Source: a virus
Virus record (IMG/VR): IMGVR_UViG_3300022858_000245
Span: 1 to 20,015 of that record
Strand: one strand, 5' to 3'
DNA: 20,015 bases
The notes below the pieces were generated by a model. That model worked only from the letters and a program-made list of their open reading frames with translations. It searched no databases and had not been told where the DNA came from. The translations under genes and the position numbers were made by a program. Positions 2,304 to 19,716 of the stretch are shown here, piece by piece; positions within the stretch are counted from its first letter, which is position 1, and the number at the start of each line of letters is the position of its first letter.

Positions 2304-3206
2304 ATGGTAAAAGTAATAGCAGAGCCAGCAAATTACTGGCAAGGGGATCACAAGTTACTACACCAGGCAGCATACGCAGCAGCAGCAGCAGGTTGCTCTA
2401 TGTTCAAGGTTCAGCTTTACGATACAGGTAATATGGGAAAGGAGTGGGCTGACAAGAGACTATTCTATAAACAATCTGAGCTTGAGGTTGGATCGCTTTC
2501 CGATATAGCTAAAACAGTTAAAACGCTAGGAATGGAACTCCTTATTACTATTAGCCAGATTCAATTATTGGATACAGCTTTGAGGTTTTCAAGTAACATT
2601 AAAATAGCATCTGGACAATTTGATAATGAGCTTGCATGTGAATTAATGAGGAGTAATAAAATAAAGAAGCTCGTAATTTCAACCGGAATGATGGAGACGG
2701 TAATACCGGATACCCCTGATAGATGTGGAACCCTTGAACATATACGTGACTTTGCACTTAATAGTCACATACCTGAAATTGTGGTTATGCATTGCGTCTC
2801 TCTTTACCCACCGTCTGAATCAGAAATGAACATGGATAGAATTGATAGACTTCGGGAATTTTTTGAGGACATACCAAATGTTGAGATAGGATATTCGGAT
2901 CATGCAGCAGATAATCTTCCTGGATTAATAGCAGTTGCCAAGGGTGTGAAGTATGTAGAGATACACATGGCTATTAGGGGTATGTTTGGTCCGACATCTG
3001 AGATAGCGAGTACCGGTGAAGAGCTATCTACTGAGATTCTGAATTTCAAGAAGATTGAAACAATGCTTGGGAACGGCCAACTAAAGATGCAGGACAGGGA
3101 ATTGCCAATGAAGGAGAGGTACTCGACCAGGTGGAAGAATAGATTGATTATTATTAAAGGGAGTGTTCTTCCTAGTGGAACAGTGGTGCCCTTTGAAAGA
3201 AAATAA
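2304..3206 (+). CDS. neuB: NeuB-like nonulosonic acid (sialic acid) synthase
   Basis: This is a PEP-dependent synthase of the NeuB family, which condenses phosphoenolpyruvate with N-acetylmannosamine or a related hexose to give a nine-carbon sialic-type acid. Visible TIM-barrel motifs are AEPANYWQGD (6-15, family AEIGxNHxGD), FKVQ (34-37), KIASGQFDN (100-108), STGMM (126-130), MHCVSLYPP (162-170) and GYSDH (196-200). H200 and H221 (VEIH) match the two metal-ligand histidines. The usual NH in the first motif is NY here. At 300 residues it is about 40-50 shorter than typical NeuB; the C-terminal SAF (antifreeze-like) domain seems cut after its first strands. The start ATG follows the upstream TAG directly, with GGGGGA as SD. 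NeuC-like and NeuA-like genes follow downstream. Confidence 0.9.
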   Translation: MVKVIAEPANYWQGDHKLLHQAAYAAAAAGCSMFKVQLYDTGNMGKEWADKRLFYKQSELEVGSLSDIAKTVKTLGMELLITISQIQLLDTALRFSSNIKIASGQFDNELACELMRSNKIKKLVISTGMMETVIPDTPDRCGTLEHIRDFALNSHIPEIVVMHCVSLYPPSESEMNMDRIDRLREFFEDIPNVEIGYSDHAADNLPGLIAVAKGVKYVEIHMAIRGMFGPTSEIASTGEELSTEILNFKKIETMLGNGQLKMQDRELPMKERYSTRWKNRLIIIKGSVLPSGTVVPFERK

Positions 3207-3227
3207 CACATGGAATGGGGGAAATAT

Positions 3228-3998
3228 ATGAAACATAAGACAAAGGTAGCAATAGTCATACCAGATACACATGCACCTCTACAAGATACTAAGGCGGTCA
3301 ATATAGTGTGCAAGGCAATAGAGCTAGTGAAGCCAGACACTGTCATACATCTTGGTGATGTCGGTGAGTGGAATTCTGTATCCTACTGGAAGTACAAAAA
3401 GAAAAAGAGACCACCGCTAGAATTCATCATAAATGATCTGGAGAAGGATGTTAAGGCAACAAATAAACTTCTAGACAAATTTGACGAATCATGCAAGAAG
3501 GCTGGGGTGAAGAAAAAGCATCTATTACTTGGGAATCATGATGAGTGGTTAAATAATTTCATAGATGAGCATCCATACCTGGAGGATAAATATTCACCAC
3601 AGGCATGCATGAGGTTGGAGGAGAGAGGCTATGATTGGTTGCCATATGATGATTTTCTAAAGATAGGATATCTACACTTTCATCATGGTGGTCATTATAC
3701 TGGCCTATATCATGCAAGACACACGGTTGTGCAGCTTGGTGTCAATGTTATGTATGGGCACTTCCACGATGTGGCGAGGGAGAGTGTTGGTAACTTTGAT
3801 GGTGTCCATGCAGCATTCTGTATAGGGTGTCTAAAAAAATGTCAGGCATCATCGAATAAATGGCTCAAAGGGAGAAAGGTAAATTGGTCACTTGCATTTG
3901 CGATAGTACACTGGAATCCAGATGGTACATTTGTGGTTAATGTAGTTGATATAACAGATGGGAGGACATTCGTTTATGGAAAACCAATCAGAGGGTAG
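3228..3998 (+). CDS. Calcineurin-like metallophosphoesterase
   Basis: The 256-residue protein carries the metallophosphatase signature in order: DTH (13-15), GD (43-44), GNHDE (102-106), HHGG (152-155) and GHFH (177-180). These residues bind a dinuclear metal centre and hydrolyse phosphomonoesters or diesters. I chose the ATG at 3228 because GGGGGA (3217-3222) is well placed; an ATG at 3210 lacks an SD. The substrate is unknown. Its place between neuB-like and neuC-like genes allows a role as a sugar phosphatase, but phage phosphoesterases of this type also act on proteins or nucleic acids. Confidence 0.85.
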   Translation: MKHKTKVAIVIPDTHAPLQDTKAVNIVCKAIELVKPDTVIHLGDVGEWNSVSYWKYKKKKRPPLEFIINDLEKDVKATNKLLDKFDESCKKAGVKKKHLLLGNHDEWLNNFIDEHPYLEDKYSPQACMRLEERGYDWLPYDDFLKIGYLHFHHGGHYTGLYHARHTVVQLGVNVMYGHFHDVARESVGNFDGVHAAFCIGCLKKCQASSNKWLKGRKVNWSLAFAIVHWNPDGTFVVNVVDITDGRTFVYGKPIRG

Positions 3999-4623
3999 GA
4001 AGGTAGTAGTGGTGAGGTCTCCAAGACAAGCCTGGAAGATTACAAGGATGTTCGATTTCGTAGGATTCAACGTAGGGGACTTAATATTTACCAATCATCG
4101 TACCAGTATATTTGCTAGGCTTATAAGGTTTGCCGGGATACTTAGCGGGGTAATTCCAGTATGTAATCACGTAGAGATGTATACTGGTGCTGGTAAGGCA
4201 TTTTCAGCCGACAGGGTTATGACATATCATAATATTGATAGATACTTCAGGGGGGGGCACGACATATATTTCTATCGTGATTTAACTATCTCAGCAGATG
4301 AAAAGAACGCCCTAGTTGCTGAGACGAGAAACTGGGTCGGTCTACCATATGATATCCTAGGGATAGTATGGCAAGTGCTAGACACTATAACCGGGAAGAA
4401 CTTTTCTGAGAAGTATAATCATGGGATACTAGCATATTGCTCAGAGTTGGTCCAGAGGATATATAAAAATGGCACTGGCAGGTCTATATCGGATGAGAAG
4501 GTCGGTGCTGCAACGCCAAGCGACATAAGATTGTATGTTGATAAGTTACCTAATTGGGAATGTGTTTTTAAAATGGTTAAAATTGGTAAGAACTGGACTG
4601 TGTCCACTAGTAGGAGGCTCTAA
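3976..4623 (+). CDS. YiiX-like NlpC/P60 cysteine hydrolase
   Basis: This 215-residue protein looks like a circularly permuted papain-fold NlpC/P60 enzyme of the YiiX/YebB type. It has the start-of-domain motif GDLIFT (34-39), a catalytic-type His in NHVEMY (H65) and a late catalytic-type Cys in YCSELV (C155), the order expected for the permuted group. Such enzymes cleave peptide or amide bonds, some in cell walls or lipids. No signal peptide or membrane span is seen. The start at 3976 has GGGAGG (3960-3965) upstream; an ATG at 3958 without an SD is the alternative. A run of eight G (4250-4257) lies inside the frame. It might be a lysis enzyme, but its place within the sugar cluster is unusual. 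Confidence 0.7.
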   Translation: MENQSEGRKVVVVRSPRQAWKITRMFDFVGFNVGDLIFTNHRTSIFARLIRFAGILSGVIPVCNHVEMYTGAGKAFSADRVMTYHNIDRYFRGGHDIYFYRDLTISADEKNALVAETRNWVGLPYDILGIVWQVLDTITGKNFSEKYNHGILAYCSELVQRIYKNGTGRSISDEKVGAATPSDIRLYVDKLPNWECVFKMVKIGKNWTVSTSRRL

Positions 4624-4928
4624 TGAAATATGTCTATGTTGAGTTCTACGATTTAGTTTATGCATCGGCATGGGACGAGGAGGCTCTGGAGATTGAGGAT
4701 ACCATTCATATTGGGATTGGGATTCTATTGGAGGATAAGCCTACGCATATAACAATTGCAATGGCTATTGGAAATAACCCGAAGCAACCATTCTCTAGAT
4801 TATTGATACCACGACAAATGATTATAAAATCAGTGGAGTTTGATAGTAATATGTTTACCGATAGATTAATGATAGATGGATACGGGAGGATAGATTGTGA
4901 AGAAGAAACTAGCCATAGCTATCACTAA
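4623..4928 (+). CDS. Hypothetical protein (101 aa)
   Basis: Not recognised. It is a predicted beta-rich, acidic small protein without a signal peptide or cysteine motif. The start overlaps the previous stop in TAATG, with a perfect AGGAGG at 4612-4617. Its 3' end overlaps the neuC-like gene by 32 bases. This tight coupling to neuC may mean a shared role, but nothing in the sequence shows one. Confidence 0.65.
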   Translation: MKYVYVEFYDLVYASAWDEEALEIEDTIHIGIGILLEDKPTHITIAMAIGNNPKQPFSRLLIPRQMIIKSVEFDSNMFTDRLMIDGYGRIDCEEETSHSYH

Positions 4929-6027
4929 TAGAAGTAGCTATAATCGCGTCAAGACAATTATACGGAACCTGCCAGCTGGAATAGTACCGTGTTTAATACT
5001 TGGCTCAAGTGTGTTTCTCTATAAATATGGTAACGTTATCGACGATATCAAGAATGACTTTCCGGATATTGAGCGTTTCAGAATAAACATGGCTGTTGAA
5101 GGTGACACAGTTGGAAAGATGCCTAAGACAGTTGGGGTGGGGGTCATAGAGATAGCGACCCTACTCGAGTTACTGAGGCCAGATGCAGTAATAACAATAG
5201 CTGATAGGTTTGAAACTATGGCTACGGCAATAGCAGCATCATATATGAATATACCACTAATACATATTCAGGGTGGTGAAACATCTGGTACAATAGATGA
5301 CAAGGTTAGGGATGCCATCACTCAATTATCGGATTACCACTTTCCAGCCACAGCAACTGCCGCAATCAATGTAACGGCAATGAATAAACATGCATTACTT
5401 AGGGTAAATACATTTAACTATGGATGTCCGTCAATGGATTTACTATTTAGGGCTGGTATATGGCTACCGTCGGAACTTGATTGCATAGTCAATAAACGTG
5501 GAACCGGACAGAGACTGGACTTCAACGAGAAGTTTATCATAGTCATGTTACACCCCGACACAGTTAAGCCAATAACTTCAAGTCAGATGGATGTCTTTAT
5601 AGACATACTATCCACTGTTGATATACAGAAGGTGATATTTTGGAATAACATTGACCCTGGTGGTGAACAAATAGCTAAGGCATATAGGGAGTCTAAGCTA
5701 GGTAGTGCTGGATGTCCAACTAGATTCATTCGGCATATAGACCCAGGGGATTTTGGAACCCTATTATCAGAAACATCCTGCATCATAGGTAACTCATCTA
5801 CAGGTATTCGTGAGGCAACATACATGGGTACACCATCACTAAGTGTAGGCAGTAGGCAAGATGGCAGGGTTGGTGGGGAAAACATTACTAGGTGTGGGTT
5901 CGATCATTATGATCTACTGTTTTTCCTAAATCAACAACTGAAATCAAAGTATGAACAGAGTAACCTTTTTGGTGTTGGGAATGCGGGTAAACTAATAGCT
6001 TCAAAAATATGGGAGATACTAAAATGA
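4897..6027 (+). CDS. neuC: NeuC-like UDP-GlcNAc 2-epimerase (hydrolysing)
   Basis: This enzyme should convert UDP-GlcNAc (or a related UDP-sugar) to free ManNAc-type sugar and UDP, the step before NeuB. The 376-residue length is typical. Seen motifs are ADRFE (102-106), HIQGGETSGTIDD (123-135), a GNSSTGIRE nucleotide-binding segment (298-306) and GSRQDGR (318-324). The usual RHAITK stretch reads RDAITQ (138-143), a mild departure from what I recall for the family. The start is GTG 4897, with GGGAGGA (4884-4890) as SD; the frame opens inside the previous gene. The stop overlaps the following small gene in ATGA. The related WecB (non-hydrolysing) is an alternative, but the GGE...IDD region favours the NeuC/LegG group. 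Confidence 0.88.
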   Translation: MKKKLAIAITNRSSYNRVKTIIRNLPAGIVPCLILGSSVFLYKYGNVIDDIKNDFPDIERFRINMAVEGDTVGKMPKTVGVGVIEIATLLELLRPDAVITIADRFETMATAIAASYMNIPLIHIQGGETSGTIDDKVRDAITQLSDYHFPATATAAINVTAMNKHALLRVNTFNYGCPSMDLLFRAGIWLPSELDCIVNKRGTGQRLDFNEKFIIVMLHPDTVKPITSSQMDVFIDILSTVDIQKVIFWNNIDPGGEQIAKAYRESKLGSAGCPTRFIRHIDPGDFGTLLSETSCIIGNSSTGIREATYMGTPSLSVGSRQDGRVGGENITRCGFDHYDLLFFLNQQLKSKYEQSNLFGVGNAGKLIASKIWEILK

Positions 6028-6167
6028 GCCAAGGAAGAAAACCAATTCACGTATGTGATCCAGCTTCAGCTGAACAGATTAGAAGAGCTCTGTTAATACC
6101 TAGTGGATACATGAAAAGGGCGGAAAAGCTATTGAAGAAAACAGGGGGAAAGATAAATGACAAGTAG
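6024..6167 (+). CDS. Very small hypothetical protein (47 aa)
   Basis: An ATG at 6024 overlaps the neuC-like stop (ATGA) and has GGGAG at 6011-6015 as SD. The frame runs to TAG 6165-6167 and overlaps the methyltransferase start at 6157 by 11 bases. The peptide starts MSQGRKPIHVCDPASAEQIR and is basic and helical in its second half. It fills an otherwise empty gap with proper coupling on both sides, which supports it as real. The function is unknown. Confidence 0.55.
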   Translation: MSQGRKPIHVCDPASAEQIRRALLIPSGYMKRAEKLLKKTGGKINDK

Positions 6168-6798
6168 GGGGGAATGGAATAAGTTTTGGAAGAATAACAG
6201 TGTAAAAGTATTAAATATAAATCCATTTGTATTCAACCTAAACTACATAATTGAATGTCTCAATAAGCACTATGGGGCAATGGAAGACAATATGGAGTTT
6301 CACGATCTTGTTAGCCTTGAAGTTGGGTGTGGTAGGGGCATACTCAGTGATCTACTCGACGCATGCTTTGTGGAGACACACAAGATTGATAAGTACTATA
6401 CTGCGTGGAATAATAAGGGGTTTCAGAAAGCAGATGTATTTGATATGCCATTTTCAAAATCGAGATTTGACCTGGCATTCTCCTATGGACTGTTAGAACA
6501 TTACGATTTTGACGATCAGCTTGCAATAATGCGAAAGATGCTATACGTAACTAAGCCAGGTGGTATAAATATCCACTACGTAGTTCCAAGGAAGCTAACA
6601 AACATAATGGAGAGTACGAGTGTTAGGCGTAATTCATGTAAGGGTCTGAGAAGATCATTTGAAAATCAGTGGGTTTTCCCAGTGCTGCCACTATTTGATT
6701 GGAAGACAAATAAGTGGTTAGGTAAGGGGTTTTTTATTGTACTTGAGCGTGGCAAGGAGTTTAGCTATTATAACGGATGTTTTGACAACGTGAGGTAG
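6157..6798 (+). CDS. Class I SAM-dependent methyltransferase
   Basis: The 213-residue protein has methyltransferase motif I LEVGCGRGI (54-62), an acidic post-II position ID (77-78), ADVFDMPF (92-99), the FDLAFSYGLLEHY stretch (104-116) and TKPGGI (132-137). It belongs with the Methyltransf_11/25 type, which methylate small molecules and sugars. It lies between neuC-like and neuA-like genes, so the substrate may be the nonulosonic acid or its precursor; this is inferred from context only. The SD is AGGGGGA at about 6143-6149. The C-terminal 60 residues are less typical and may form a substrate-binding lid. Confidence 0.85.
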   Translation: MTSRGEWNKFWKNNSVKVLNINPFVFNLNYIIECLNKHYGAMEDNMEFHDLVSLEVGCGRGILSDLLDACFVETHKIDKYYTAWNNKGFQKADVFDMPFSKSRFDLAFSYGLLEHYDFDDQLAIMRKMLYVTKPGGINIHYVVPRKLTNIMESTSVRRNSCKGLRRSFENQWVFPVLPLFDWKTNKWLGKGFFIVLERGKEFSYYNGCFDNVR

Positions 6799-6800
6799 AT

Positions 6801-7439
6801 ATGAAAATAAATGCACTAATTACAGCTAAGTCGAATAGTACTAGAATTCCATATAAGAATGTAACCTTTGTGGCCGGGAAACAACTATATAAGTGGACAA
6901 CTGATTTCCTAGAAAGGTACTACTTCATGTTTGAAAATATATATTTCTCATCTAATAAACCAGAGATGTTCGGTTTTAGTGGGACGAAAATAAGAGCAAT
7001 CAAAAGACCTGCGATATTATGCAGTGACAGCCTATCACATATGGCAACAGTTAAGCATGCCATATCAAGAATGATACGCGATGGAAGTAATCCAGATTAC
7101 ATAATGTTGTTTCAGCCAACAAATCCGTTTAGGAGTTTTTCTGACATCGTTAGTGCCATAAAGATAGTTAGGGATAATAATAGCGTAGACATGGTATGCT
7201 CGCACTATCACGATGACAATTTAGAGCCTAGCTACATAAGGCATGCACGTAATTCACATCCATCAGATACTGCCGTCAAGATTAAGAGTGGGAACCTTTA
7301 TCTATGGAGGAGGAGATATATATCTGAGGGACATCTTGGATGCTATGTGTCAATCAGGATTCCAAAGTACCGTGGATATAATATAAATGTCCCGTCTGAT
7401 ATTCCAATAGCCGAGGCACTATATAAATACAATTATTAA
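6801..7439 (+). CDS. neuA: NeuA-like CMP-nonulosonic acid cytidylyltransferase
   Basis: This enzyme should activate the nonulosonic acid with CTP to form CMP-sugar. It has the nucleotidyltransferase loop AKSNSTRIPYKN (9-20; family consensus ARxGSxRxPxKN, with Lys for the first Arg), RP (69-70), LFQPTNPFR (103-111), GNLYLWRR (164-171) and a late acidic motif PSDIPIAEAL (198-207) in the metal-binding position. The length (212) is near that of single-domain enzymes. It starts 2 bases after the methyltransferase stop, with a GAGGTAG SD. KdsB is a possible relative, but the nearby neuB and neuC homologues favour NeuA. Confidence 0.87.
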   Translation: MKINALITAKSNSTRIPYKNVTFVAGKQLYKWTTDFLERYYFMFENIYFSSNKPEMFGFSGTKIRAIKRPAILCSDSLSHMATVKHAISRMIRDGSNPDYIMLFQPTNPFRSFSDIVSAIKIVRDNNSVDMVCSHYHDDNLEPSYIRHARNSHPSDTAVKIKSGNLYLWRRRYISEGHLGCYVSIRIPKYRGYNINVPSDIPIAEALYKYNY

Positions 7440-7452
7440 AGGGGGTAGTTGA

Positions 7453-8475
7453 ATGATGTACTCTATGGTAGGGCTTAGTTTAGGGGCAACATTGCTTGAG
7501 TCCTGGGAGATTGGCGAGAGCATAAAAAGGAAAATACATCTAAGGTCGGACGAGAAGGTGTTAATAATGTCAGATGATATATTCAGGCCGAATACTGTAT
7601 TGCATATGGAGGTTTTAGATTATGTTATAAAGACAGTTGGAAGAGATAATGTCATAATAGTAGTGGCATCTGGAATGCACAGGGCTAGCACGCTACAAGA
7701 AATTGAGTCTAAGTTTAGTGCAAAACTAGATGGAATAAGATTATATAGGAACTCACCATTAGTTAGTTTTCCATTTGCTGACTTTTCGGAATATACTAGG
7801 ATTAGCATTGGAACAATAATGCCACACATATTCGTCAAGAGGAGTGGTGGTGGCAAGGTTGTTGTTCCTGGTCTTACATCTGTCGCAGGTGCTATTAATT
7901 TTCATAAACTGACTAGGTCTGAGGCCGTAAGGTATATTAGGAGAATAGAGAGGGGTATAGACTATGTTGTTAGCGGTGTCATAAATAGACTTGGCGAGGT
8001 TGTAAACATAGTAATAAATGATATTCCAGTGCGGTTAAGCGAGGAAAGAATGTCTAAATATAATTTCGGTGTAATACTAGACGAGCCCGCAGATGTTGTA
8101 GTACTCGAACCATTATTTAAAAATGGGGACTTCATGCAAGCGATGAATGTGCTTCGACTGTGTAAATATAATATTGTTAATGATGGTGGAACAATCTGTA
8201 TAAAATGTTCTCCAAAGGATGGAATTGGTGTACACTACATATTTCAGCAGGTTAATGGTATCAAGCCAGCTAAGTTTGACGTTGCATTCTCGGAGTTAAT
8301 AGGTGACAGGAAGCTGGCGGTAATATGCCCAACTATATCTAGGCTACAAATAGATGAGTGCTTTGAGAAACCAATTACTCATTATAAAACACCATTTGAC
8401 TTATACGACAACTGTACCAATCTAAAGGTCTCACACTATTTAGGAGCAGATGTCATGCTTCCCCAAGGAGAGTAA
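7453..8475 (+). CDS. LarA-family nickel-pincer 2-hydroxyacid racemase/epimerase homologue
   Basis: The protein resembles lactate racemase LarA (N-terminal domain DUF2088). The residues known to be important in Lactiplantibacillus plantarum LarA appear in order and at matching distances: D42/R45 (DIFRP, for D72/R75), H76 in GMHR (H108), H125 in MPHI (H174), K135 in GGGK (K184) and H151 in NFHK (H200). The last three have exactly the 10- and 16-residue spacing of LarA, as I recall its numbering. The lysine covalently holds the nickel-pincer nucleotide in LarA. The length is 340, shorter than the usual about 420. A C-terminal NDGGTICIKCSPKDGIG (243-259) also fits. The family racemises or epimerises 2-hydroxyacids. 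It sits between neuA-like and maf-like genes. No LarB, LarC or LarE cofactor gene is visible here, so cofactor would have to come from the host or from elsewhere in the phage. The SD is GGGGG, 8 bases upstream. Confidence 0.78.
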   Translation: MMYSMVGLSLGATLLESWEIGESIKRKIHLRSDEKVLIMSDDIFRPNTVLHMEVLDYVIKTVGRDNVIIVVASGMHRASTLQEIESKFSAKLDGIRLYRNSPLVSFPFADFSEYTRISIGTIMPHIFVKRSGGGKVVVPGLTSVAGAINFHKLTRSEAVRYIRRIERGIDYVVSGVINRLGEVVNIVINDIPVRLSEERMSKYNFGVILDEPADVVVLEPLFKNGDFMQAMNVLRLCKYNIVNDGGTICIKCSPKDGIGVHYIFQQVNGIKPAKFDVAFSELIGDRKLAVICPTISRLQIDECFEKPITHYKTPFDLYDNCTNLKVSHYLGADVMLPQGE

Positions 8476-8478
8476 TAA

Positions 8479-10425
8479 ATGAGCATATATTCCGAGAACA
8501 TAGCGGCACTAGATCGTAATTATCCAGATTTAAGTGAGAGGGTTAAACACCTAAAGGATGACTACAGTGTGAAAATCAGAAATACTGGTCAGGAGGGAAT
8601 GTGCACGTGTATTCTCGGTGATGGTGATAGTGATGGTAGGACGTTGAACTCTACGGAAAATCCACTTGAGGAGGCCAGGAGATATGTGAGAATGGTTGTA
8701 GGTGATGAGGATAAGGCCGGACTAGTGGTTATGAGTGGACTTGGAATGGGGTATTACCTCCAGGCATTATTTGATGGCAAGTTATATCCGGGCTCAGTTG
8801 TCCTGGTGTTCGAACCTGATATACAGCTCTTCAAAAAATTCATAGAGAACAGACATCTACAGCTAACTGTGGACGGTAAGAATATAAATATTTTTGATGC
8901 CGGTTGTGTAAGATTTCTAGTTGGATTACCAGTTGATAAGGTGTACTCCGTTGTCTATGACATACTACAGGACGTTGGCAAAAATTATTTCTCAAGTACT
9001 GAATTCATAGAACACCCAAAACTAATTAGAGTTGCGAAGCAGTACTATAAACCAGTCTTCTCAGAATTGAGCAGGGTGTTTTATGATATTAGGTCTTCTT
9101 TTGGTAATGATCCAGAGGATAGCTGGTTCGGGGTGGACCATCAATTCCAAAACCTTGACATCATACTAAATAATCCTGGGGTTAGTGGGTTAAAGAATAA
9201 ATTTAAGGATGTTCCAGCAGTTATAGCGGCAACTGGGCCTTCACTCGATAAGAATATAGACCTGCTCCATAGTATAAAAGATAAGGCTGTATTCTTTGCG
9301 GCAGATGCATCACTGAATTCATTTCTAAATTATAGTACTCCTATAGTTCCAGATATTGTATGTTCACTTGAGAGGAACCTAACAACCAGGGAGCACTTCG
9401 CTCAGATACCAGACGACAAGAAGGTGCTAATGAGGGACATATGGCTTGCAGCCTGTCCAGTAGTCAAACCGGAGGTCTACGAGGAATGGCACGGTAAACA
9501 TATGATTGTGTTTCGTGATTTTGCGCACTTTAAGTGGCTTGGTCTCGATAAGGGCATATTGAATACTGGGAAGTCTGTAACAAATCTAGCCTTTATGGTT
9601 GCATATTATATGGGGTGCTCACCAATAGTATTAGTTGGGCAGGACTTGGCATTTGCCCCAGATGGTAAGACACACGTGAACGGGGCAACACATGCTAGTG
9701 ATGGGATGAGGAAGTCACAGTTAATGAATCAGCAATGTGAGGTTATGGGTAACGACGGCAAAGCGATAAAGTCTCTGGATACATGGGTCGGCATGAGGAG
9801 AAGATTCGAGAAGGATATAGAGGAGCTGAAAGTTAAGTGTGTCAACGCCACAGAGGGTGGTGCATTAATCAAGGGAACCAAGATAATGAGATTCAAGGAT
9901 GCAATTGAGCAGTTTATGACGAAGGATATCGACGTACAATCAATACTTAGTGATAACTTAACCAGACTATCCGATGAGGACGTACAGAGGGATTTTGACA
10001 TAGTAAATAAGAATGTGAAGGACGGCGTTGACTACTACAAGGTAACTCTTGACAACATAGATATAGCCAAGGATTGTATAGAGGAATATTTTAGTGGGGT
10101 AGTTAAGGATGGTATCAATGATACATATTTAGAGAAAATACTTGAGTACTGTGAGAATCTAAAAATGGAGATATTGAATCATCCAATGTGCTATCATTCT
10201 GCTATGCACGTAATACAGTCTGTGACACTTGGGTGCACAAATACAAACAAGGCAATCGACAGGAGATACGATGGCGCGGAGAAGAGCATGGCAAAGCTAA
10301 TAGTGGTTTTCAAGTTATTCTGTAGTCTTGAGATATTATTTAAAAAAATGAATAGCGGTGTTAGGGGAAACTATGGCAAGTTTATTAGGGAGTTCAGGCC
10401 GGACATGCAGGGTGTGTGGGATTGA
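8479..10425 (+). CDS. maf: Maf/DUF115-type nonulosonic acid glycosyltransferase
   Basis: This 648-residue protein matches the Maf (motility accessory factor) family, which transfers nonulosonic acid from its CMP form to Ser/Thr of flagellin. Seen are an N-terminal VVMSGLGMGYYLQAL (83-97) and VLVFEPD (108-114), then the DUF115/MptE-like core: AATGPSLDKNIDLL (250-263), FFAADASLNSFLN (272-284), PDIVCSLE (291-298), NTGKSVTNLAF (362-372) and GQDLAFAPDGKTH (387-399). The C-terminal third is helical. It starts 3 bases after the larA-like stop, with an AAGGAGAG SD. It is the last of the sugar cluster and directly precedes the packaging genes. A pterin pyrophosphokinase (MptE) function is unlikely given size and context. 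Confidence 0.85.
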   Translation: MSIYSENIAALDRNYPDLSERVKHLKDDYSVKIRNTGQEGMCTCILGDGDSDGRTLNSTENPLEEARRYVRMVVGDEDKAGLVVMSGLGMGYYLQALFDGKLYPGSVVLVFEPDIQLFKKFIENRHLQLTVDGKNINIFDAGCVRFLVGLPVDKVYSVVYDILQDVGKNYFSSTEFIEHPKLIRVAKQYYKPVFSELSRVFYDIRSSFGNDPEDSWFGVDHQFQNLDIILNNPGVSGLKNKFKDVPAVIAATGPSLDKNIDLLHSIKDKAVFFAADASLNSFLNYSTPIVPDIVCSLERNLTTREHFAQIPDDKKVLMRDIWLAACPVVKPEVYEEWHGKHMIVFRDFAHFKWLGLDKGILNTGKSVTNLAFMVAYYMGCSPIVLVGQDLAFAPDGKTHVNGATHASDGMRKSQLMNQQCEVMGNDGKAIKSLDTWVGMRRRFEKDIEELKVKCVNATEGGALIKGTKIMRFKDAIEQFMTKDIDVQSILSDNLTRLSDEDVQRDFDIVNKNVKDGVDYYKVTLDNIDIAKDCIEEYFSGVVKDGINDTYLEKILEYCENLKMEILNHPMCYHSAMHVIQSVTLGCTNTNKAIDRRYDGAEKSMAKLIVVFKLFCSLEILFKKMNSGVRGNYGKFIREFRPDMQGVWD

Positions 10426-10897
10426 ACTGAGCAAGTATAATACGTACACGTCGAGTATGGTGCGTAACGACTGGATATGCAAGGATTGTAAGCGTAGTAC
10501 TATAGAGAAGGCACGTAACGAGAAGAGGGGAAAAGAATTAGACAGGTCTAGTACGGCAGGTGCCAAGGAAATGATAAAGGCCACTGAGAAGCTAAGGGTT
10601 GACAGTATGTATGACCTATTAATTAGCAACATTGGAAACCCCTCAGCCAATTGTAAAATAATATTATACCTCCTCTGCTCCGTGGATATTCTGTCCGACA
10701 ATAAGATGTCTAGAGTTATTGATATTGCAAATGGGGTAATAAAGTCAGCTATGGTGCATACAGATGTTAGAATTAAATTAGCAACAAATTTACGGGCATT
10801 ACTGTCGGACGGCAAGAAGGAGATGCCAAAGAATTTTTCATACGAGGAGTTGGTTGGTGGAGATACAGCTAATATAGAGTTGGAGGTTTTCACATAG
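10373..10897 (+). CDS. Zinc-ribbon protein in the small-terminase position
   Basis: This 174-residue protein has two CxxC pairs, CRVC (12-15) and CKDC (36-39), forming a zinc ribbon, followed by a basic helical stretch and a helical C-terminal half. I chose ATG 10373 with AGGGG upstream; an in-frame GTG at 10358 is possible. It overlaps maf by 53 bases and shares one base with the terL start. Its position before terL suggests a small terminase subunit or other DNA-binding packaging factor, but I see no sequence proof. No HNH histidines are seen, so an HNH nuclease is unlikely. Confidence 0.6.
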   Translation: MASLLGSSGRTCRVCGIELSKYNTYTSSMVRNDWICKDCKRSTIEKARNEKRGKELDRSSTAGAKEMIKATEKLRVDSMYDLLISNIGNPSANCKIILYLLCSVDILSDNKMSRVIDIANGVIKSAMVHTDVRIKLATNLRALLSDGKKEMPKNFSYEELVGGDTANIELEVFT

Positions 10898-12672
10898 TGA
10901 GTACAATTAACTTCGACATATCGAGGCTTGGAGAATATGATTACTATTCTCCGCGGCTACTATGTGTTCAAACTGATGTTGGTCTTGTGAAGTTCGACAT
11001 AGGGAATCGCTTTGTTCAGAAAGAGATTAACAAGGTGTGGAATGTTGCAGAGTCACACAAAAAGCCTGTCAAGTTAATAATATTAAAGGCCAGGAGGCAC
11101 GGGGTTTCTACCTATGTTCAGAGCAGGATGTTTCATAAATGTCATACCATCTCACATAGACACGGAATAACCATAGCTGCCGATGATAAGGGGTGTTCAT
11201 ATATCCATAACATGTCTCATATATTCTATGAGTATCTACCAACGGAATTAAGGCCAGCTGTTAGATTTAAAAGTAAGTCACAGTTATATTTTGACCTACC
11301 ACAGAGATTGGTTAAGTCAGGCAGACATGGTCTGAAGTCCTCAATGAGAACAGTATCATGTACCGATAAGGCAGGACTTGGTACTGGTCAGCACTTCATA
11401 CACTTCTCGGAGTACGCATTTTATAGAGATGCTGATACTGTGAGAACATCTGTGATACCTACCGCATTTAAGACCCCCGGAACATTTATAGTGTTGGAGT
11501 CAACGGCTAATGGAATGACTGGTCAGGGTGAACCGTTTTATCAGGAGTGGTTAAGGGCTGTTAAGGGTACAAGCGCATTTAAGCCACTATTCTATAGTTG
11601 GTTACAGCACGAGGATTATAGAATAGTATTAACAGGTAGTGATGAGGAGGAGATAAGGGATACACTAGACGATGAGGAGAGATACATTGTTGGCTCCAAG
11701 GGTGGTACGCTTGAACAACTAAAGTGGCGTAGAGAACAGATCGGTTTGCTTGGTCAGGGAGCTGGGATAAATACTAAGACAGCATTGGAAAACTTTCACG
11801 AACAATACCCAACGACAGATACGGAGGCATTTATAGTAAGCGGTAAACCTGTTTTTGATAGGGCAGCACTACGAGCGTATAAGGAGCGCGTGAAGAAGCC
11901 AATGTGGATTGGTGATATAGTAGGGTGCATGTTAGAGTCTAACATAGTTGGTAGTCTACAAATTTGGGAGCAACCAATAGATGGTGAGAAGTACGTTGCG
12001 TCAATTGATCCATCATCTGGCGAGCCCGGTGATACGGATTTCGGTGCGATAGAGGTGTTTCGTGTACTGGATAGGAGGGATGGTGGTTTAGTTGCAACTC
12101 AATGTGCTGAGTGGCACGGTAAGATGGATACTGACATAGTGGCACAGTATGCAGTTACTCTTGCCAAGAAGTATAATAACGCCATCATAGCACCAGAGGT
12201 GTGTGGATATGGTCATTCTGTATTGAAGGAAATACAGAAGATGGATTATTGGAATATATTTAAGCGTAGGGTTGTGGATTCGGTAAATCATAAACCAACA
12301 ACAAAGTTGGGGTGGAAGACGGATGCAACCACTAAACCAATGCTAGTCTCCTTTGCTAGACAATGTGTCGAGAATAGAAAAGTTGGAATTAAAAGTTCCA
12401 TGTTAATACATGAGATGACCATCTACGTTAAAGATAATATGGGAAGTGGTACCAGTGCGTATGGTAGGGGCAAGGATGACCTAGTCGATGCGTTTATGAT
12501 TAATATGTTGGTTACGGATATTGAATACGGTGATTCCCATGTAGATAGTGTTGGAGTGCTTGAGAATAAAATAGAGTCAAAGATAACCAAGCTAGCTGAG
12601 AAGAAGGATAAGCTACACTATGATACTTGGGATGGGAGAAAGAAGAATAAAGGACACTGGTTAAATTTATAG
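10897..12672 (+). CDS. terL: Terminase large subunit
   Basis: The packaging motor ATPase and nuclease. The ATPase domain has a Walker A variant KARRHGVST (64-72), Walker B-like FIHFSEYAF (167-175) with catalytic Glu at 172, and a coupling motif LESTANG (200-206). The RNase H-like nuclease domain has ASIDPSSGEPGD (368-379; D371), an acidic residue in APEVCG (E434) and GRGKDDLVDAF (523-533). At 591 residues the length is normal. It starts at GTG 10897, which shares one base with the previous TAG, with GGAGG upstream. Confidence 0.92.
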   Translation: MSTINFDISRLGEYDYYSPRLLCVQTDVGLVKFDIGNRFVQKEINKVWNVAESHKKPVKLIILKARRHGVSTYVQSRMFHKCHTISHRHGITIAADDKGCSYIHNMSHIFYEYLPTELRPAVRFKSKSQLYFDLPQRLVKSGRHGLKSSMRTVSCTDKAGLGTGQHFIHFSEYAFYRDADTVRTSVIPTAFKTPGTFIVLESTANGMTGQGEPFYQEWLRAVKGTSAFKPLFYSWLQHEDYRIVLTGSDEEEIRDTLDDEERYIVGSKGGTLEQLKWRREQIGLLGQGAGINTKTALENFHEQYPTTDTEAFIVSGKPVFDRAALRAYKERVKKPMWIGDIVGCMLESNIVGSLQIWEQPIDGEKYVASIDPSSGEPGDTDFGAIEVFRVLDRRDGGLVATQCAEWHGKMDTDIVAQYAVTLAKKYNNAIIAPEVCGYGHSVLKEIQKMDYWNIFKRRVVDSVNHKPTTKLGWKTDATTKPMLVSFARQCVENRKVGIKSSMLIHEMTIYVKDNMGSGTSAYGRGKDDLVDAFMINMLVTDIEYGDSHVDSVGVLENKIESKITKLAEKKDKLHYDTWDGRKKNKGHWLNL

Positions 12673-12680
12673 GAGGCAGC

Positions 12681-14066
12681 ATGAAGGAAAGGGATATAAG
12701 CTTTGGAGACCCTACATTATCAGAAGAATATGAAGAGGGGGTAAGGTCGTGTGAGATATGTGGCAATGATACATACGCAACCCTACATGAGAGGTGTAGG
12801 TGGAAGGGTAGTAACTACCTAGTTAGTAAGGATAAACACCTATTTCACAAGACTGATGTTATATGTAATAAGTGTGGACTGGTGTATAAAAACCCAATGA
12901 TGAGCGAGGAGTCAACTGACAGATTTAATAAGGTTGATTACCCGAAAATATATCATGGGGGAAATATAGGCGGTATATGTAGGCAGGAAGTTGGTAATAG
13001 CGTACTGGTAGCGGCACCATTCTTCGATTGGATAGAATCAAACAATATAGAAATCCTGGATAAGAAGATACTTGACATTGGATGTGGGATAGGAACAATA
13101 CTAGGTGGACTAAAGGTTATGGGTGGAGATGTCACTGGGATAGATGCTAGTGAGAGAAATAGGGATATAGGGGAAAAGCTATATGGTGTAAAAATAGTAT
13201 CGGCATCACTCTTCGATGATTCAGAAATTACTGGCAACGAGTACGATATTATAACAATTATGAACTCTCTGGAGCACTTCTACTCCCCCAAGGATGTGTT
13301 AAGGAGGGTTCATAAGTTACTAAGGAAAGATGGTAAATTAATAATAGAGGTTCCGTCTATGGAGTACCCATATGCCAGAACTACCCCAGATGGGTTTCTG
13401 TCGTCAGCACATCTGTACACATTCTCAGAGCAAACGATAAGGTTCCTGCTGGCAGTATCTGGATTCGAGGTAGACGGCATTGTTCATGAGGGTCACAATA
13501 AGTGTATGTATATAACAGCACATAAACTTACAACATTCAATGATTATGTAATTACTGACACAATAGACACAGATACAATGCTAAAGAGATACAAGGGAAT
13601 ATTCAACGAGACTGCGCTTCAAGACATTAACGCTAAGAAAATCACCAAGATGATAGTTGAGCATAGCCCTATGAGTGAGGTTAACGATGAGATAGGTAAG
13701 TTTAAATATACATCTAATGTTATTAGGAGTGCAATTGGCTTTGCCATGTTGGAGCGCGGTCTTGCCCCACCAACTATGGTACATGAGATTCTTACCCACT
13801 ATAATCACGATCAGTCGTATACATTTGATTGTAATTATGGGACATTCCTAACCGGAAGAGCCTTAGCTTCATTACTGATGGGTGACACTATGGGTGGTAA
13901 GAAGACACTCCTGGAGGCAATAAAATATTTTCCAAATATATTAACTAGGAATTTCTTCAAGAATCTATGTGTGGAGGGCATAATGTCTGAAAGCACACTG
14001 GAGCGGAGTACGTACTACAGGTGCTATAAGCTATTGAATGATCTAGGGATTAAAAAAAAGTTGTGA
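12681..14066 (+). CDS. Zinc-binding class I SAM methyltransferase with C-terminal helical domain
   Basis: This 461-residue protein has an N-terminal zinc-ribbon (CEIC 24-27, CNKC 62-65), then a methyltransferase domain: ILDIGCGIG (130-138), GIDAS (153-157), IMNSLEHF (193-200), KLLRKDGKLIIEVP (212-225) and HLYTFS (244-249). This domain order is common in methyltransferases of sugar and polysaccharide clusters. From about 290 a helical region of some 170 residues follows that I do not recognise; it may be TPR-like. It lies between terL and portal, an unusual place, with an AGGAGG SD. It may act in the sugar system or modify a virion protein. Confidence 0.82.
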   Translation: MKERDISFGDPTLSEEYEEGVRSCEICGNDTYATLHERCRWKGSNYLVSKDKHLFHKTDVICNKCGLVYKNPMMSEESTDRFNKVDYPKIYHGGNIGGICRQEVGNSVLVAAPFFDWIESNNIEILDKKILDIGCGIGTILGGLKVMGGDVTGIDASERNRDIGEKLYGVKIVSASLFDDSEITGNEYDIITIMNSLEHFYSPKDVLRRVHKLLRKDGKLIIEVPSMEYPYARTTPDGFLSSAHLYTFSEQTIRFLLAVSGFEVDGIVHEGHNKCMYITAHKLTTFNDYVITDTIDTDTMLKRYKGIFNETALQDINAKKITKMIVEHSPMSEVNDEIGKFKYTSNVIRSAIGFAMLERGLAPPTMVHEILTHYNHDQSYTFDCNYGTFLTGRALASLLMGDTMGGKKTLLEAIKYFPNILTRNFFKNLCVEGIMSESTLERSTYYRCYKLLNDLGIKKKL

Positions 14067-14082
14067 AAAACTGGTTATCGAC

Positions 14083-14111
14083 TTGACAAAAACTAATTTA
14101 CAGTGTATAAG
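14083..14111 (+). promoter_or_regulatory. Sigma70-type promoter directly before a start codon
   Basis: A perfect TTGACA (14083-14088), a 17-bp spacer and TATAAG (14106-14111) form a strong promoter in the gap after the methyltransferase gene. The predicted start of transcription, near 14118, is only about two bases before the ATG at 14120. Its transcript would be nearly leaderless for that gene, and the visible SD (AAGGAGAAGG) overlaps the -10 region. It may mainly serve later reading frames, or be a chance match. Confidence 0.5.
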
Positions 14112-14119
14112 GAGAAGGT

Positions 14120-14911
14120 ATGGCTACGAAATTAGCAAAGAAAAGGAAAGTCATTACTAAGGAAGAGCTTCAAAAGGATATCTTTGATGAGGATATTGGG
14201 GTTACGCCTGGGCCAGATAAACCACCCGATGACGATGTAGATGCACATGATGACATTATTGGCTCAGATGAAGACAAACTCTCCAGTCTTAAAGAGGAAG
14301 TGCTGAAGGAATTTGGTAAGGATGGTGTGGAGGAATTTAATCGTAAAATGGAGGGGTCGGATAATGAAAAAAAAGATAGTGTCAGTGCTGAGGAAGGGTG
14401 CAAAGATAGTGGGAAGGGCAATCCTATTTTGCCTGATCGAAGAGATGTCAGACAGGAAAAGGAAGTAGCTAGTGGGGTTTCTGAGTACAAATCTGATATC
14501 AAGTCAACTGAACTAATCGAGTTAAATAGGTGCGCAAATTTTATATTAGGTTGTCTACCGCCTGGAATAAAAAAAGATTTCGAGGTAGCTGCATATGATA
14601 ACAGGATAGAGGATATGGGCATATATATGTTGGGTCTACTGAACCAAGCGTATAAAATGGGAGACTATTATAATCCAGACGTTGAGAAAGAATGGGAAAT
14701 GAAAACAATAGGTTACAGGGGAGACCTTCTCTGCCAGCAATGTGGGAAGGTAATAATAAATCCAAGAAATATAAATCAGGTGTTCTGCAATAATCTGTGT
14801 GCAAGGAACTCCAAAAGATATGCAACGGGGATCATTAAGCCAGTTGAGAGGGAGTTACCTACTGAGGATCAGGAAGATAAAAAATCGTATGAGAAGGAAT
14901 TAATTGGATAA
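14120..14911 (+). CDS. Acidic protein with C-terminal zinc-binding motif
   Basis: This 263-residue protein is not recognised. Residues 1-15 are basic and about 20-125 are rich in Asp, Glu, Ser and Pro and probably disordered. A helical section follows (130-185), and the C-terminal domain has four cysteines, CQQC (205-208) and CNNLC (223-227), suggesting a zinc finger. It lies just before the portal gene and is followed by an intrinsic terminator. A role in head assembly or packaging is possible from position alone. Confidence 0.7.
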   Translation: MATKLAKKRKVITKEELQKDIFDEDIGVTPGPDKPPDDDVDAHDDIIGSDEDKLSSLKEEVLKEFGKDGVEEFNRKMEGSDNEKKDSVSAEEGCKDSGKGNPILPDRRDVRQEKEVASGVSEYKSDIKSTELIELNRCANFILGCLPPGIKKDFEVAAYDNRIEDMGIYMLGLLNQAYKMGDYYNPDVEKEWEMKTIGYRGDLLCQQCGKVIINPRNINQVFCNNLCARNSKRYATGIIKPVERELPTEDQEDKKSYEKELIG

Positions 14912-14918
14912 ATAATGT

Positions 14919-14950
14919 GGGTCTCATTAAAAAATATGAGACCCCTTTTT
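14919..14950 (+). terminator. Intrinsic terminator
   Basis: A perfect 9-bp stem, GGGTCTCAT (14919-14927) with ATGAGACCC (14936-14944), encloses an 8-base loop and is followed by CTTTTT. It lies 8 bases after the stop of the acidic protein gene. It would separate the preceding transcripts from the portal gene unless read-through occurs. Confidence 0.85.
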
Positions 14951-14991
14951 AAGTTAATAGTTAGTATACTCATAATTAATAGGTAAAATAT

Positions 14992-16797
14992 ATGTCTGAT
15001 GAGCAGATTGGTACCAAGAGTGAGGACATAACTAAATATCTTGATGGTATAGACGGTGAGATGGATGAGTATAAAACCAGATACGTATCAAAAGAGTGGG
15101 ATGATATCCCAAGTTTTTACTTAGGTAGGAGTCATTGGGGTGAAGAGAGGCCATCACATAAGGCATCTCCCGTGCTAAACTTCCTAAGACAGGCCATTGA
15201 AAGGAAGACATCAATGATGACAGATACAAAGCCATTTGTTGATGTTCTACCATTTTATGATCCACTACAGGATGTGGCTGATGCCCTAGTTGAGATCATG
15301 AGGGCTAAGTGGTCTGAGTATTCTCTTGATATGACAATTACTGACATCATATTTTATTCAGAGTTATTTGGTACGTGTGGTGTAAATACTATATATGATA
15401 AGACGTTAGACTGGGGAAAGGGAGATTCAACTGTACACTGCGTTGACCCTAGGAATCTTAACTTTGACCCGAACATAACAGCACCACAGTACTTAGATCA
15501 AGCACAGTATCTTAGGATGGAGGGTATATACACCACTAGGGAATTGATGAACAGGTATAATAATAAGGATATAAAGCCGGACGCACCACACTCATTTCTC
15601 AAAGAAGCTAAGATGACTGAGAAGAGGGGAAGAATGGTTAGGCAGGTTCAGAAGTTACTAACCAGAAAGTCTGCACTGGAACGATCTCTCGTAAGAGAGT
15701 ACTGGCTTAAAGATCATACAATGGTTAATGGGAAACAGAAATATCCAAAGGGTAGGCATATAATAATAGCAGGTGGGGAACTCGTGGTTGATGACCATAA
15801 TCCATATTGGGATGGGATGCACCCAGTTGACATACTTACTTGGCATCGTGATCCTGATACTGCCTGGGGTGTTGGTGAGATATCGGACCTTAAGGAATTA
15901 CAGAGATTGCTCAATAAGTTAGTTACCATCATAGTAGAAAATGGTATGTTGATGACTAATGCAATCTGGATAGGTGATGCTAATGCATTAGAACCTGAGG
16001 ATTGGGAGAACCTTGATAATGTTCCAGGACTGAAAGTTAAAATAAAACCAGGATCAAATCTCAAGAGGGAGACCGGACAACCATTACCATCTAGTATATT
16101 TGATATAATAAAATACGTTGAGTCTGCAATTGAGAAGCTATCTGGGAATACAGAGGTTGTATCTGGTGGAGTTCCAGGACAAGTTAGATCGGGTAGTGCT
16201 ATTGAGGCATTACAGACCGCAGCCATGGCAACGATCAGGCTGAAGTCAAGACTAGTTGAATCTCTTCTGGAGAGAGTTGGGCAGAAGTTGATATCGAGAA
16301 TCTTTCAGTTTCAGGACACCAATAGGCTGATGTGGCGATTAAAGAATGACAATGATTATGAGAGTTTTAAGTTTGCAGCCGATGTTCTTAGGGGAAAGAT
16401 TCCAGAAGCGAAGAAATATATGAAAAATCCCAAGGATGCATGGAAGAATTTTCTTTTTAAAGTTAGACCTGGTTCATCTCTGGCAATGAATAACTGGCAG
16501 AAATCTATGATGGCCCTACAACTATATCAGGCACAGCCTAGGCCATTAATAGATAAAGAAAGCGTACTTGAGACTCTGGATTGGCCTAATAGAACTGAGA
16601 TACTTAGGAGACTAGAGGAGCAGGAGGCTAATCAGATGGAGATGGCTATGCAGATGCAGGAAGCTGGTGGACAAGGTGGCGGTGTTCCAGGGGAAGTCAA
16701 ACATGCTGGGAGTATGCCGAGTATAGCAAATATAAAAGGTACACACTTCGATCAAGGAGTGCGGGAAGGTATAAGTAAAAATACGGGGATTCAATAA
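14992..16797 (+). CDS. Portal protein
   Basis: The 601-residue protein fits the phage portal: position after terL and before scaffold and capsid, length, and an N-terminal pattern with PVLNFLRQAIERKTSMM followed by a conserved-looking PFYDPLQDVADAL. The middle has DVTG-type alternatives (DWGKGDSTVHCVDPRNL), and the C-terminal third is helical with a Gln/Met-rich end. The portal forms the dodecameric ring through which DNA is packaged and ejected. The SD is weak (only AGG at about 14981-14983). A TATACT at 14965-14970 could be a -10 element, but no good -35 is seen. The start overlaps the 3' region after a terminator, so it needs its own promoter or read-through. Confidence 0.85.
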   Translation: MSDEQIGTKSEDITKYLDGIDGEMDEYKTRYVSKEWDDIPSFYLGRSHWGEERPSHKASPVLNFLRQAIERKTSMMTDTKPFVDVLPFYDPLQDVADALVEIMRAKWSEYSLDMTITDIIFYSELFGTCGVNTIYDKTLDWGKGDSTVHCVDPRNLNFDPNITAPQYLDQAQYLRMEGIYTTRELMNRYNNKDIKPDAPHSFLKEAKMTEKRGRMVRQVQKLLTRKSALERSLVREYWLKDHTMVNGKQKYPKGRHIIIAGGELVVDDHNPYWDGMHPVDILTWHRDPDTAWGVGEISDLKELQRLLNKLVTIIVENGMLMTNAIWIGDANALEPEDWENLDNVPGLKVKIKPGSNLKRETGQPLPSSIFDIIKYVESAIEKLSGNTEVVSGGVPGQVRSGSAIEALQTAAMATIRLKSRLVESLLERVGQKLISRIFQFQDTNRLMWRLKNDNDYESFKFAADVLRGKIPEAKKYMKNPKDAWKNFLFKVRPGSSLAMNNWQKSMMALQLYQAQPRPLIDKESVLETLDWPNRTEILRRLEEQEANQMEMAMQMQEAGGQGGGVPGEVKHAGSMPSIANIKGTHFDQGVREGISKNTGIQ

Positions 16798-17072
16798 TGG
16801 GTTCATTTAAGGTTGGTGGCAAAGTCTATAATAGTATGAAGGCGTATAGGGATAGGGATAAGACTACTACTAGCACAACCTCCTCTGTACAGCCAACTAC
16901 TACCACTACTATCCCGAGGAAACCTCCACCGAGAGGTAAGAGGCCAGAGCCTAAATTACTAGAGAAGAGGAAGACGACTACTACTACCAGTCAGCAGGTT
17001 GAGAAGGCAAAGGGTATCATAGGTGAGATGCGAAAGAGGAAGAGAAGTTGGGATGCAACGCTTAAAGAGTAG
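16797..17072 (+). CDS. Thr/Pro-rich basic small protein
   Basis: This 91-residue protein is not recognised. It is low-complexity: runs of Thr (TTTSTTSS at about 23-30, TTTTT at about 35-39 and 60-64), a Pro/Arg/Lys-rich middle and a basic helical end. The start overlaps the portal stop in TAATG. Repeated ACT codons give the DNA a simple-repeat look. Dense Ser/Thr makes it a candidate acceptor for O-linked sugars from the Maf-like enzyme; this is an inference. Confidence 0.65.
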   Translation: MGSFKVGGKVYNSMKAYRDRDKTTTSTTSSVQPTTTTTIPRKPPPRGKRPEPKLLEKRKTTTTTSQQVEKAKGIIGEMRKRKRSWDATLKE

Positions 17073-17077
17073 GCGTA

Positions 17078-17083
17078 TATAAT
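17078..17083 (+). promoter_or_regulatory. Possible -10 box before scaffold gene
   Basis: A perfect TATAAT lies just after the stop of the Thr-rich gene. No good -35 is seen at 16-18 bp upstream, so a phage-specific or activator-dependent factor would be needed. The predicted start near 17090 would place the hairpin at 17091-17131 at the very 5' end of the mRNA. Confidence 0.3.
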
Positions 17084-17090
17084 GTAAGCG

Positions 17091-17131
17091 ATTAGCCGAG
17101 TTTCAATATTATGTTGAACAGCAAGGCTAAT
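17091..17131 (+). promoter_or_regulatory. Two-part stem-loop in scaffold leader
   Basis: ATTAGCC (17091-17097) pairs with GGCTAAT (17125-17131), and an inner stem TTCAA (17102-17106) pairs with TTGAA (17114-17118). No T-run follows, so it is not an intrinsic terminator. It could stabilise the mRNA 5' end. The rest of the gap to 17199 shows only the scaffold SD. Confidence 0.45.
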
Positions 17132-17199
17132 GACAAAAACCAATATCTGGACTGTCTAATAAGCAGTAATGCCTTGGGCAACAATCAGAGGGAGGAAAC

Positions 17200-17907
17200 A
17201 TGGCAACATCAAGCGACACAGTAACTAGTACGGTCACGGTCACCGCTATTCAATCTAGTGGTACAGCCGAGGTATCATTCGACATCAGTAAGGTTGACAT
17301 CAATTCTTTACCAGATGAGTATCAGAAAATTATTAAGGGCTATCAGGGTGATTATACCAAGAAGACCCAGGCAATTTCTGAGAGGAGTAAGGAGATGCAG
17401 GATAAGATAGCAACAGCCGAGAAGTGGACTGGATGGTATGAGCAGAACAAGGGGCTCATCTCAGAGTTCAACGACTGGAGAGGCAAGGTTGATCTTGCAG
17501 GTGATGATGACGATCCTGATTCGAATGATAACGACGAACCATTAACGGCAAGTGCATTGAAGAAACTGGAGAAAAAAATCGACGAGAGAAATACGCAGTC
17601 AGACAATGCCTTCTCTCAGGGGTTCCAGATGCTTGTGAAGTTACAGGGATTACAGATGCGTAGTGGAACAGATATAACTCCAGACCCGGAAAAAATCATA
17701 AAGTATGCAAAGGAAAATAGTATCACGGATATTGAAGCTGCATACGAGGGTGCCTACAAGGATGAAATTCTTACTGCAAAGATAGCAAAAGCTGTAGCCG
17801 TAGAGAAGGAAAAATGGGAGTCGAACAATAAAGCTGATGTCCTGAACGCAAATATGCCGAAAGGTAGAGAAGTACGCAAAGTATTGGCTAGGGACAGAAA
17901 GAAGTAA
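17200..17907 (+). CDS. Probable capsid scaffolding protein
   Basis: This 235-residue protein is charged and mostly helical. It has a Ser/Thr/Val-rich N-terminus (1-25), an acidic loop GDDDDPDSNDNDEP (101-114), coiled-coil-like stretches on both sides and a very basic C-terminus (GREVRKVLARDRKK). A basic helical C-terminus that contacts coat protein is typical of scaffolds. Its place between portal and major capsid gene supports this. The SD is a strong GGGAGG (17188-17193) before the ATG. Direct homology was not checked. Confidence 0.7.
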   Translation: MATSSDTVTSTVTVTAIQSSGTAEVSFDISKVDINSLPDEYQKIIKGYQGDYTKKTQAISERSKEMQDKIATAEKWTGWYEQNKGLISEFNDWRGKVDLAGDDDDPDSNDNDEPLTASALKKLEKKIDERNTQSDNAFSQGFQMLVKLQGLQMRSGTDITPDPEKIIKYAKENSITDIEAAYEGAYKDEILTAKIAKAVAVEKEKWESNNKADVLNANMPKGREVRKVLARDRKK

Positions 17908-17915
17908 TTTGATCT

Positions 17916-17952
17916 GTTACCCCTAGTCTTAAAGATAACTTTAGGAGGTAAC
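17916..17952 (+). promoter_or_regulatory. Hairpin sequestering the capsid gene SD
   Basis: GTTACCCCTA (17916-17925) pairs with TAGG-A-GGTAAC (17942-17952), a 10-bp stem with one bulged A and a 16-base loop. The SD AGGAGG (17943-17948) lies wholly in the 3' arm. When folded it would block ribosome access to the capsid start at 17955, pointing to translational control. Confidence 0.6.
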
Positions 17953-17954
17953 AA

Positions 17955-18890: not shown

Positions 18891-18905
18891 TATTAACATG
18901 ATAGG

Positions 18906-18957
18906 CCTCCTAGGGGTTGCCCATAACCCCTTGGAGATTTGCCCAAATCAAAGGAGG
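18906..18957 (+). promoter_or_regulatory. Leader with nested hairpin and anti-SD
   Basis: CCTCCT (18906-18911) is an exact complement of the downstream SD AGGAGG (18952-18957). Between them is a hairpin, AGGGGTT (18912-18918) with AACCCCT (18925-18931), lacking a T-run. The two together could form a long-range structure that hides the SD of the gene at 18966. The inner hairpin may also protect the capsid mRNA 3' end. Confidence 0.45.
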
Positions 18958-18965
18958 ATTTTACA

Positions 18966-19691: not shown

Positions 19692-19716
19692 ACGATATTA
19701 ATATGTAAACAATGTG

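Follow-up and report, generated by a model that had tools for sequence, protein, structure and literature searches.

The window considered here is a stretch of 20,015 bases from a virus record (IMGVR_UViG_3300022858_000245), and beside its phage packaging genes it carries a row of genes of the kind used in nonulosonate synthesis and protein glycosylation. Cells are known to carry sialic-acid-like sugars on their proteins. On balance, we favour the view that the row is a phage-borne protein O-glycosylation cassette, in which a nonulosonate-like sugar would be made and then transferred by a Maf enzyme to Ser/Thr, the likeliest acceptor being a virion protein. What is observed directly are the gene families, their order, their conservation and their residue patterns; from these we infer the individual reactions, which sugar is made, which protein accepts it and how the phage benefits.

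Starting from a NeuB-family gene, the + strand encodes a phosphoesterase, a C92-like peptidase, a small open reading frame (ORF), NeuC, a methyltransferase, a NeuA-family protein, a LarA-family protein, Maf, a zinc-ribbon protein, the terminase large subunit (TerL), a second methyltransferase, a portal, an ORF with a threonine run, a scaffold-like protein and an SU10-type major capsid protein (MCP). The cassette genes almost abut and have Shine-Dalgarno-like sites. The original prediction had placed NeuB, NeuC, NeuA and Maf/DUF115 homologues on one strand upstream of the terminase genes. Profile searches bear out the family memberships and the arrangement, and portal and capsid genes lie downstream as well. 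The list of four was correct as far as it went, but it overlooked a conserved methyltransferase and a LarA-like racemase, and it passed over the phosphoesterase, the C92-like peptidase and the small ORF of the same interval.

Conservation of the cassette in a phage clade

The cassette is real and conserved within the packaging gene block of these phages. Over window positions 7499-20015, contig IMGVR_UViG_3300025669_001056 shares 99.98% identity with the window (two mismatches, one gap), and it prolongs the structural region beyond the window. Searching with NeuC brought up two diverged phages in which the gene row is complete, and Maf and terminase profiles brought up further ones; in these contigs the genes stand in the same order, with protein identities of 24-60%. 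The row NeuC-methyltransferase-NeuA-LarA-Maf-TerS-TerL, in which TerS denotes the zinc-ribbon protein at the small-terminase position, is found in every virus with sufficient sequence (the window, L006, L007/L010 and L011), and its visible portion is retained in L012, L013, L014, L024 and L025. Maf is present in all nine terminase-clade viruses whose records extend upstream of TerL. The clade consists of tailed phages, two of its records being about 60 kb long. Relatives whose terminases are no more than 35% identical lack the cassette; for about 30 of them the record covers 2.5 kb or more upstream of TerL. Maf identities follow terminase identities (Spearman 0.82 over 21 non-independent pairs), a correlation such as vertical inheritance would give. 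The same comparison was negative for the LarA-like protein, whose identities do not track those of the terminase (Spearman 0.14).

One concern, raised with the original prediction, was that phage DNA might have been wrongly joined to a bacterial glycosylation island. Nothing was found in favour of this, and the overlapping contig and the diverged phages with identical gene order rule out a misjoined island; we give that explanation practically no credence.

NeuB lies near the core row but not adjacent to it, because three relatives have a gene for the ribonucleotide reductase large subunit that separates NeuB from NeuC (L006:2709-4505, L007:8244-10004, L011:2797-4548); the window lacks this gene. 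In L007 a thymidylate synthase-like gene follows NeuB.

A pattern scan found no close relatives of the window Maf in GTDB genomes, and in 299 Pseudomonadota genomes bacterial Mafs were found only as weak matches; the best score to a Maf of the Pseudomonadota sampled was 78 bits. Annotated phages gave no Maf match, and NeuC was matched among them solely in a Moritella contig filed with the phages. The bacterial NeuC neighbourhoods that we examined contain NeuB and, in most cases, NeuA; they contain neither LarA nor Maf.

The enzymes

NeuC (4897..6027, + strand), a hydrolysing UDP-N-acetylglucosamine (UDP-GlcNAc) 2-epimerase, scores 242 bits against TIGR03568, above the curated cut-off of 235.9 bits, and all four phage members match the model. 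Its best match in the PDB is human GNE (4zht). The GNE-like motif GGE.SGTIDD reads GGETSGTIDD in the window, GGEVSGTIDD in L006, GGEISGTIDD in L011 and GGEKTGSIDD in L007. This is the GNE form and not the form of diNAcBac epimerases, and we presume that the motif determines the specificity of the enzyme.

The NeuB-family nonulosonate synthase-like protein (2304..3206, + strand) has 300 amino acids and consists of the barrel only. It scores 87 bits against PF03102 (cut-off 22 bits), 83 bits against TIGR03569 and 66 bits against PseI; the PF03102 barrel is found in the window, L007 and L011. His200, His221 and Lys35 are invariant in the aligned rows; we take the histidines to be the metal ligands and the lysine to be the one that binds phosphoenolpyruvate (PEP). 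The nearest solved relative is 6ncs, a short NeuB from Leptospira.

The NeuA-family protein (6801..7439, + strand), which resembles synthetases of cytidine monophosphate (CMP)-nonulosonates, is a borderline match to PF02348 in the window (22.8 bits against a cut-off of 22.6); the family is matched in four of four phages. Its AlphaFold2 model (pLDDT 86.9) has the CMP-Neu5Ac synthetase 6ifd as top fold match (Z 23.5), with KdsB lower at 19.8, and CMP-sialate, CMP-Kdn and CMP-Pse synthetases rank above other nucleotidyltransferases. Judging by this model, the protein folds as a CMP-nonulosonate synthetase. Against models of the neuraminic (Neu), legionaminic (Leg) and pseudaminic (Pse) acid types, NeuB and NeuA give weak scores of similar size.

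The S-adenosylmethionine-dependent methyltransferase conserved in the row (6157..6798, + strand; PF08241, 39.8 bits) has homologues of 39-45% identity at the same position. The second methyltransferase (12681..14066, + strand; PF13489, 63.9 bits) keeps its place between TerL and the portal throughout the clade and has N-terminal CxxC motifs. It diverges in step with Maf (Spearman 0.83) and is possibly a tailoring enzyme.

The LarA-family protein (7453..8475, + strand; PF09861, 47.6 bits) belongs with the 2-hydroxyacid racemases and epimerases that depend on the nickel-pincer nucleotide (NPN). Profiles match it to Mar2 and LarA, and with a model of moderate quality (pLDDT 69) the top 19 Foldseek hits are all of LarA type. 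In Lactiplantibacillus plantarum LarA the residues that bind NPN or catalyse are R75, H108, H174, K184 and H200 (PMC11770544). All five have counterparts in the phage protein (R45, H76, H125, K135 and H151); H125, K135 and H151 are present in seven of seven rows, and H76 in all rows covering the site. Supply of the NPN cofactor calls for LarB, LarC and LarE; no match to the LarC family was obtained in four phage records, hence the cofactor would have to come from the host. The survey of the LarA superfamily deals with bacteria, archaea and certain unicellular eukaryotes, and its text contains neither the word phage nor the word virus (PMC11770544). No report of a phage lactate racemase turned up in the open-licence literature. 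That the substrate is a hydroxyacid substituent of the sugar is our guess.

Maf/DUF115 (8479..10425, + strand; 648 amino acids) scores 136 bits against PF01973, with a cut-off of 34.6 bits, and 174 bits against NF050051 (PseD), under the cut-off of 670 for that model. PF01973 is found in all seven homologues, and the N-terminal domain PF20157 in four of them, the window protein not being among the four. Bacterial Mafs take CMP-nonulosonates as donors, and they also work with other donors and with chimeric acceptors (PMC11339370).

Proposed pathway and acceptor

In the pathway that we propose, NeuC would convert host UDP-GlcNAc to N-acetylmannosamine, and the short NeuB would add PEP to give a nine-carbon keto acid. 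The NeuA-like enzyme would activate this acid with cytidine triphosphate. The methyltransferase and the LarA-like enzyme, the latter with host-made NPN, may tailor the sugar or its hydroxyacid substituent, and Maf would place the sugar on Ser/Thr of a protein in the cytoplasm.

The first candidate for this acceptor is a protein with a threonine run (PTTTTT) encoded directly after the portal (16797..17072, + strand). The window, L010, L013 and L015 each have an ORF of this type after the portal, and L028 has a weaker example there. A single ORF with such a run, in another setting, occurs in 855 kb of cassette-less terminase relatives, a comparison in which coverage of the slot is unmatched between the two groups. 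Since the cassette lies beside packaging genes, a virion protein is the likeliest acceptor.

Weighing the alternatives

Several observations speak against our reading. In all four phages the NeuB proteins stop short in the alignment and lack the C-terminal SAF domain. All four also have Gln (Gln105 in the window) at an acidic active-site position, that of E134 in meningococcal numbering, where all six bacterial rows have Asp or Glu. In NeuA a metal-binding Asp is replaced by Asn196: five of five phages have Asn and five of five bacterial rows Asp. The RRQ substrate loop of NeuA is deleted in the alignment of all phages. With these losses one or both enzymes may not catalyse the textbook reaction. 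To our knowledge no nonulosonate pathway includes a LarA enzyme. On the acceptor side, threonine runs are missing in L011 even though Maf is present, so the threonine-run protein is a candidate only, and the Maf acceptors known so far are flagellins. The original prediction had described the key motifs as intact, which holds for NeuC, but NeuB and NeuA do not keep all of theirs. It had further stated that NeuC, NeuB and NeuA suffice for CMP-Neu5Ac; given the altered active sites, homology does not establish this step. Its caution that product and acceptor are inferred still applies.

The active-site changes are common to all phages, and we therefore read them as selected rather than as decay. 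They could mean that the NeuB- and NeuA-like proteins were repurposed, either for a keto-acid sugar other than Neu, Leg or Pse or with one of the two being non-catalytic, and that the LarA-like enzyme serves in a new route. The universal Gln105 and Asn196, the loop deletion, scores of NeuB and NeuA far under the equivalog cut-offs and a LarA-like enzyme that is otherwise unexplained in the row all agree with this. However, NeuB retains its metal histidines and PEP lysine, the NeuA fold is closest to CMP-nonulosonate synthetases, and NeuC and Maf, the flanking steps of the pathway, have nothing unusual about them. Leptospira (6ncs) and other phages, including a cyanophage, also have short NeuB relatives, thus loss of SAF need not equal lost function. 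In our opinion repurposing is improbable, yet it deserves to be taken seriously. An idea that we hold far less probable takes the DUF115 protein for a pterin kinase of the MptE type and its neighbours for unrelated cargo. The model of its catalytic domain does bear the name MptE-like, and among the PDB profile matches archaeal MptE ranks first, though weakly; but the protein has 648 amino acids against about 240, four of seven homologues carry the Maf N-terminal domain, the PseD model gives 174 bits, and NeuC and NeuA are constantly alongside.

The chemistry could also be as we propose and the acceptor be on the host, either flagellin or another surface protein, whose re-glycosylation would block competing phages or alter motility. 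The original prediction had named both virion and host flagellin. It is true that the characterised Maf enzymes modify flagellin (PMC4065374, PMC11339370) and that the epaA/epaB enzymes of Acinetobacter prophages alter host nonulosonates (PMC12053666). Against this, the cassette sits among packaging genes, and two relatives of about 60 kb yielded no integrase (records perhaps incomplete), which makes it less likely that a lysogen would be altered lastingly. A search of four phage records, again perhaps incomplete, turned up no flagellin, a result that says nothing of the flagellin of the host. A virion acceptor is favoured, indirectly, by the place in the packaging block and the threonine-run ORF and seems more likely than host flagellin, for which we find no support here; we judge a host acceptor unlikely. 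Our reading of a cassette for virion glycosylation can be extended further: phages of the clade might modify proteins of their own head or portal region with a novel nonulosonate whose structure requires a nickel-pincer epimerase, by way of NeuB and NeuA active-site variants, which would amount to a complete phage pathway and to phage use of NPN. This extension is tentative, and we consider it possible rather than probable.

Other features of the window

The metallophosphoesterase (3210..3998, + strand; PF00149, PHROG 221) is also present in L006. It was not found in L007 or L011 and is consequently not counted as core. The permuted papain-like (YiiX/C92) protein (3958..4623, + strand; PF05708, under the cut-off) occurs, among the mapped relatives, in the window only and is probably outside the cassette; it is a possible lysis or amidase gene. 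The small ORF between it and NeuC lies at 4623-4928 (+ strand).

On the structural side, the zinc-ribbon protein (10358..10897, + strand) is conserved in the clade, and TerL (10897..12672, + strand) matches the PHROG terminase and, by tblastn, phage terminases, which identifies the DNA as phage-derived. Profiles identify the P22/SU10-type portal (14992-16797, + strand) and the SU10-type MCP (17955-18890, + strand), the nearest annotated MCPs being distant and of mixed origin. In a 62-kb relative (L016) the structural region encodes proteins with laminin-G/concanavalin-like domains, at 1028-1918 and in neighbouring genes.

A promoter scan of the window gave matches near chance level. Positions 1-980 are AT-rich (26% GC) and free of phage ORFs, and this region precedes a promoter-like site at 927-955. 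The second methyltransferase is followed by an ORF and then by a strong terminator-like hairpin (14919-14944), which may mark the end of a cassette-terminase transcript.

Implications and comparison with known systems

If our reading is true, phages could place an acidic sugar on a chosen protein independently of the pathways of the host. The six-gene set can be used to test virion or host-protein glycosylation. The cassette would tie LarA chemistry to glycans, and its NeuB and NeuA variants raise the question of which parts of the textbook active site are dispensable. No report matching a combination of phage nonulosonate synthesis with Maf was found in the open-licence literature.

We know of no nonulosonate synthesis in mycobacteriophage virion glycosylation. 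There, according to Freeman et al. 2023 as cited in PMC12619734, phage glycosyltransferases act on virion proteins; those enzymes are of other kinds, and in our case the virion is a proposed acceptor. The prophage enzymes EpaA and EpaB likewise act on nonulosonate, but they modify a host-made capsule sugar (PMC12053666), whereas the phage cassette encodes synthesis, activation and protein transfer. The LarA-like protein shares its fold and the five NPN-binding or catalytic residues with the LarA superfamily (PMC11770544), yet it is about 80 residues shorter, phage-encoded and located inside a sugar cassette. Short, SAF-less NeuB proteins are also encoded by the cyanophage Kyanoviridae AG-345-L05 (MH319754, L124; 7776-8609), amid surface-sugar genes, and by a 484-kb phage (LR756508, L125; 7746-8648), in both cases without NeuC, Maf or LarA within 8 kb.

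A close parallel is bacterial flagellin glycosylation by Maf in Aeromonas, Campylobacter and Clostridium, where donor synthesis of the NeuB/NeuA type is likewise combined with Maf transfer to Ser/Thr. The phage system differs from it in its setting, a phage packaging block with no phage flagellin, and in its parts: a SAF-less NeuB, an altered NeuA, an extra LarA-like enzyme and a Maf distant from those of the sampled Pseudomonadota. The chemistry itself is of a known kind; what is new is where it is found and which parts have been added or altered.

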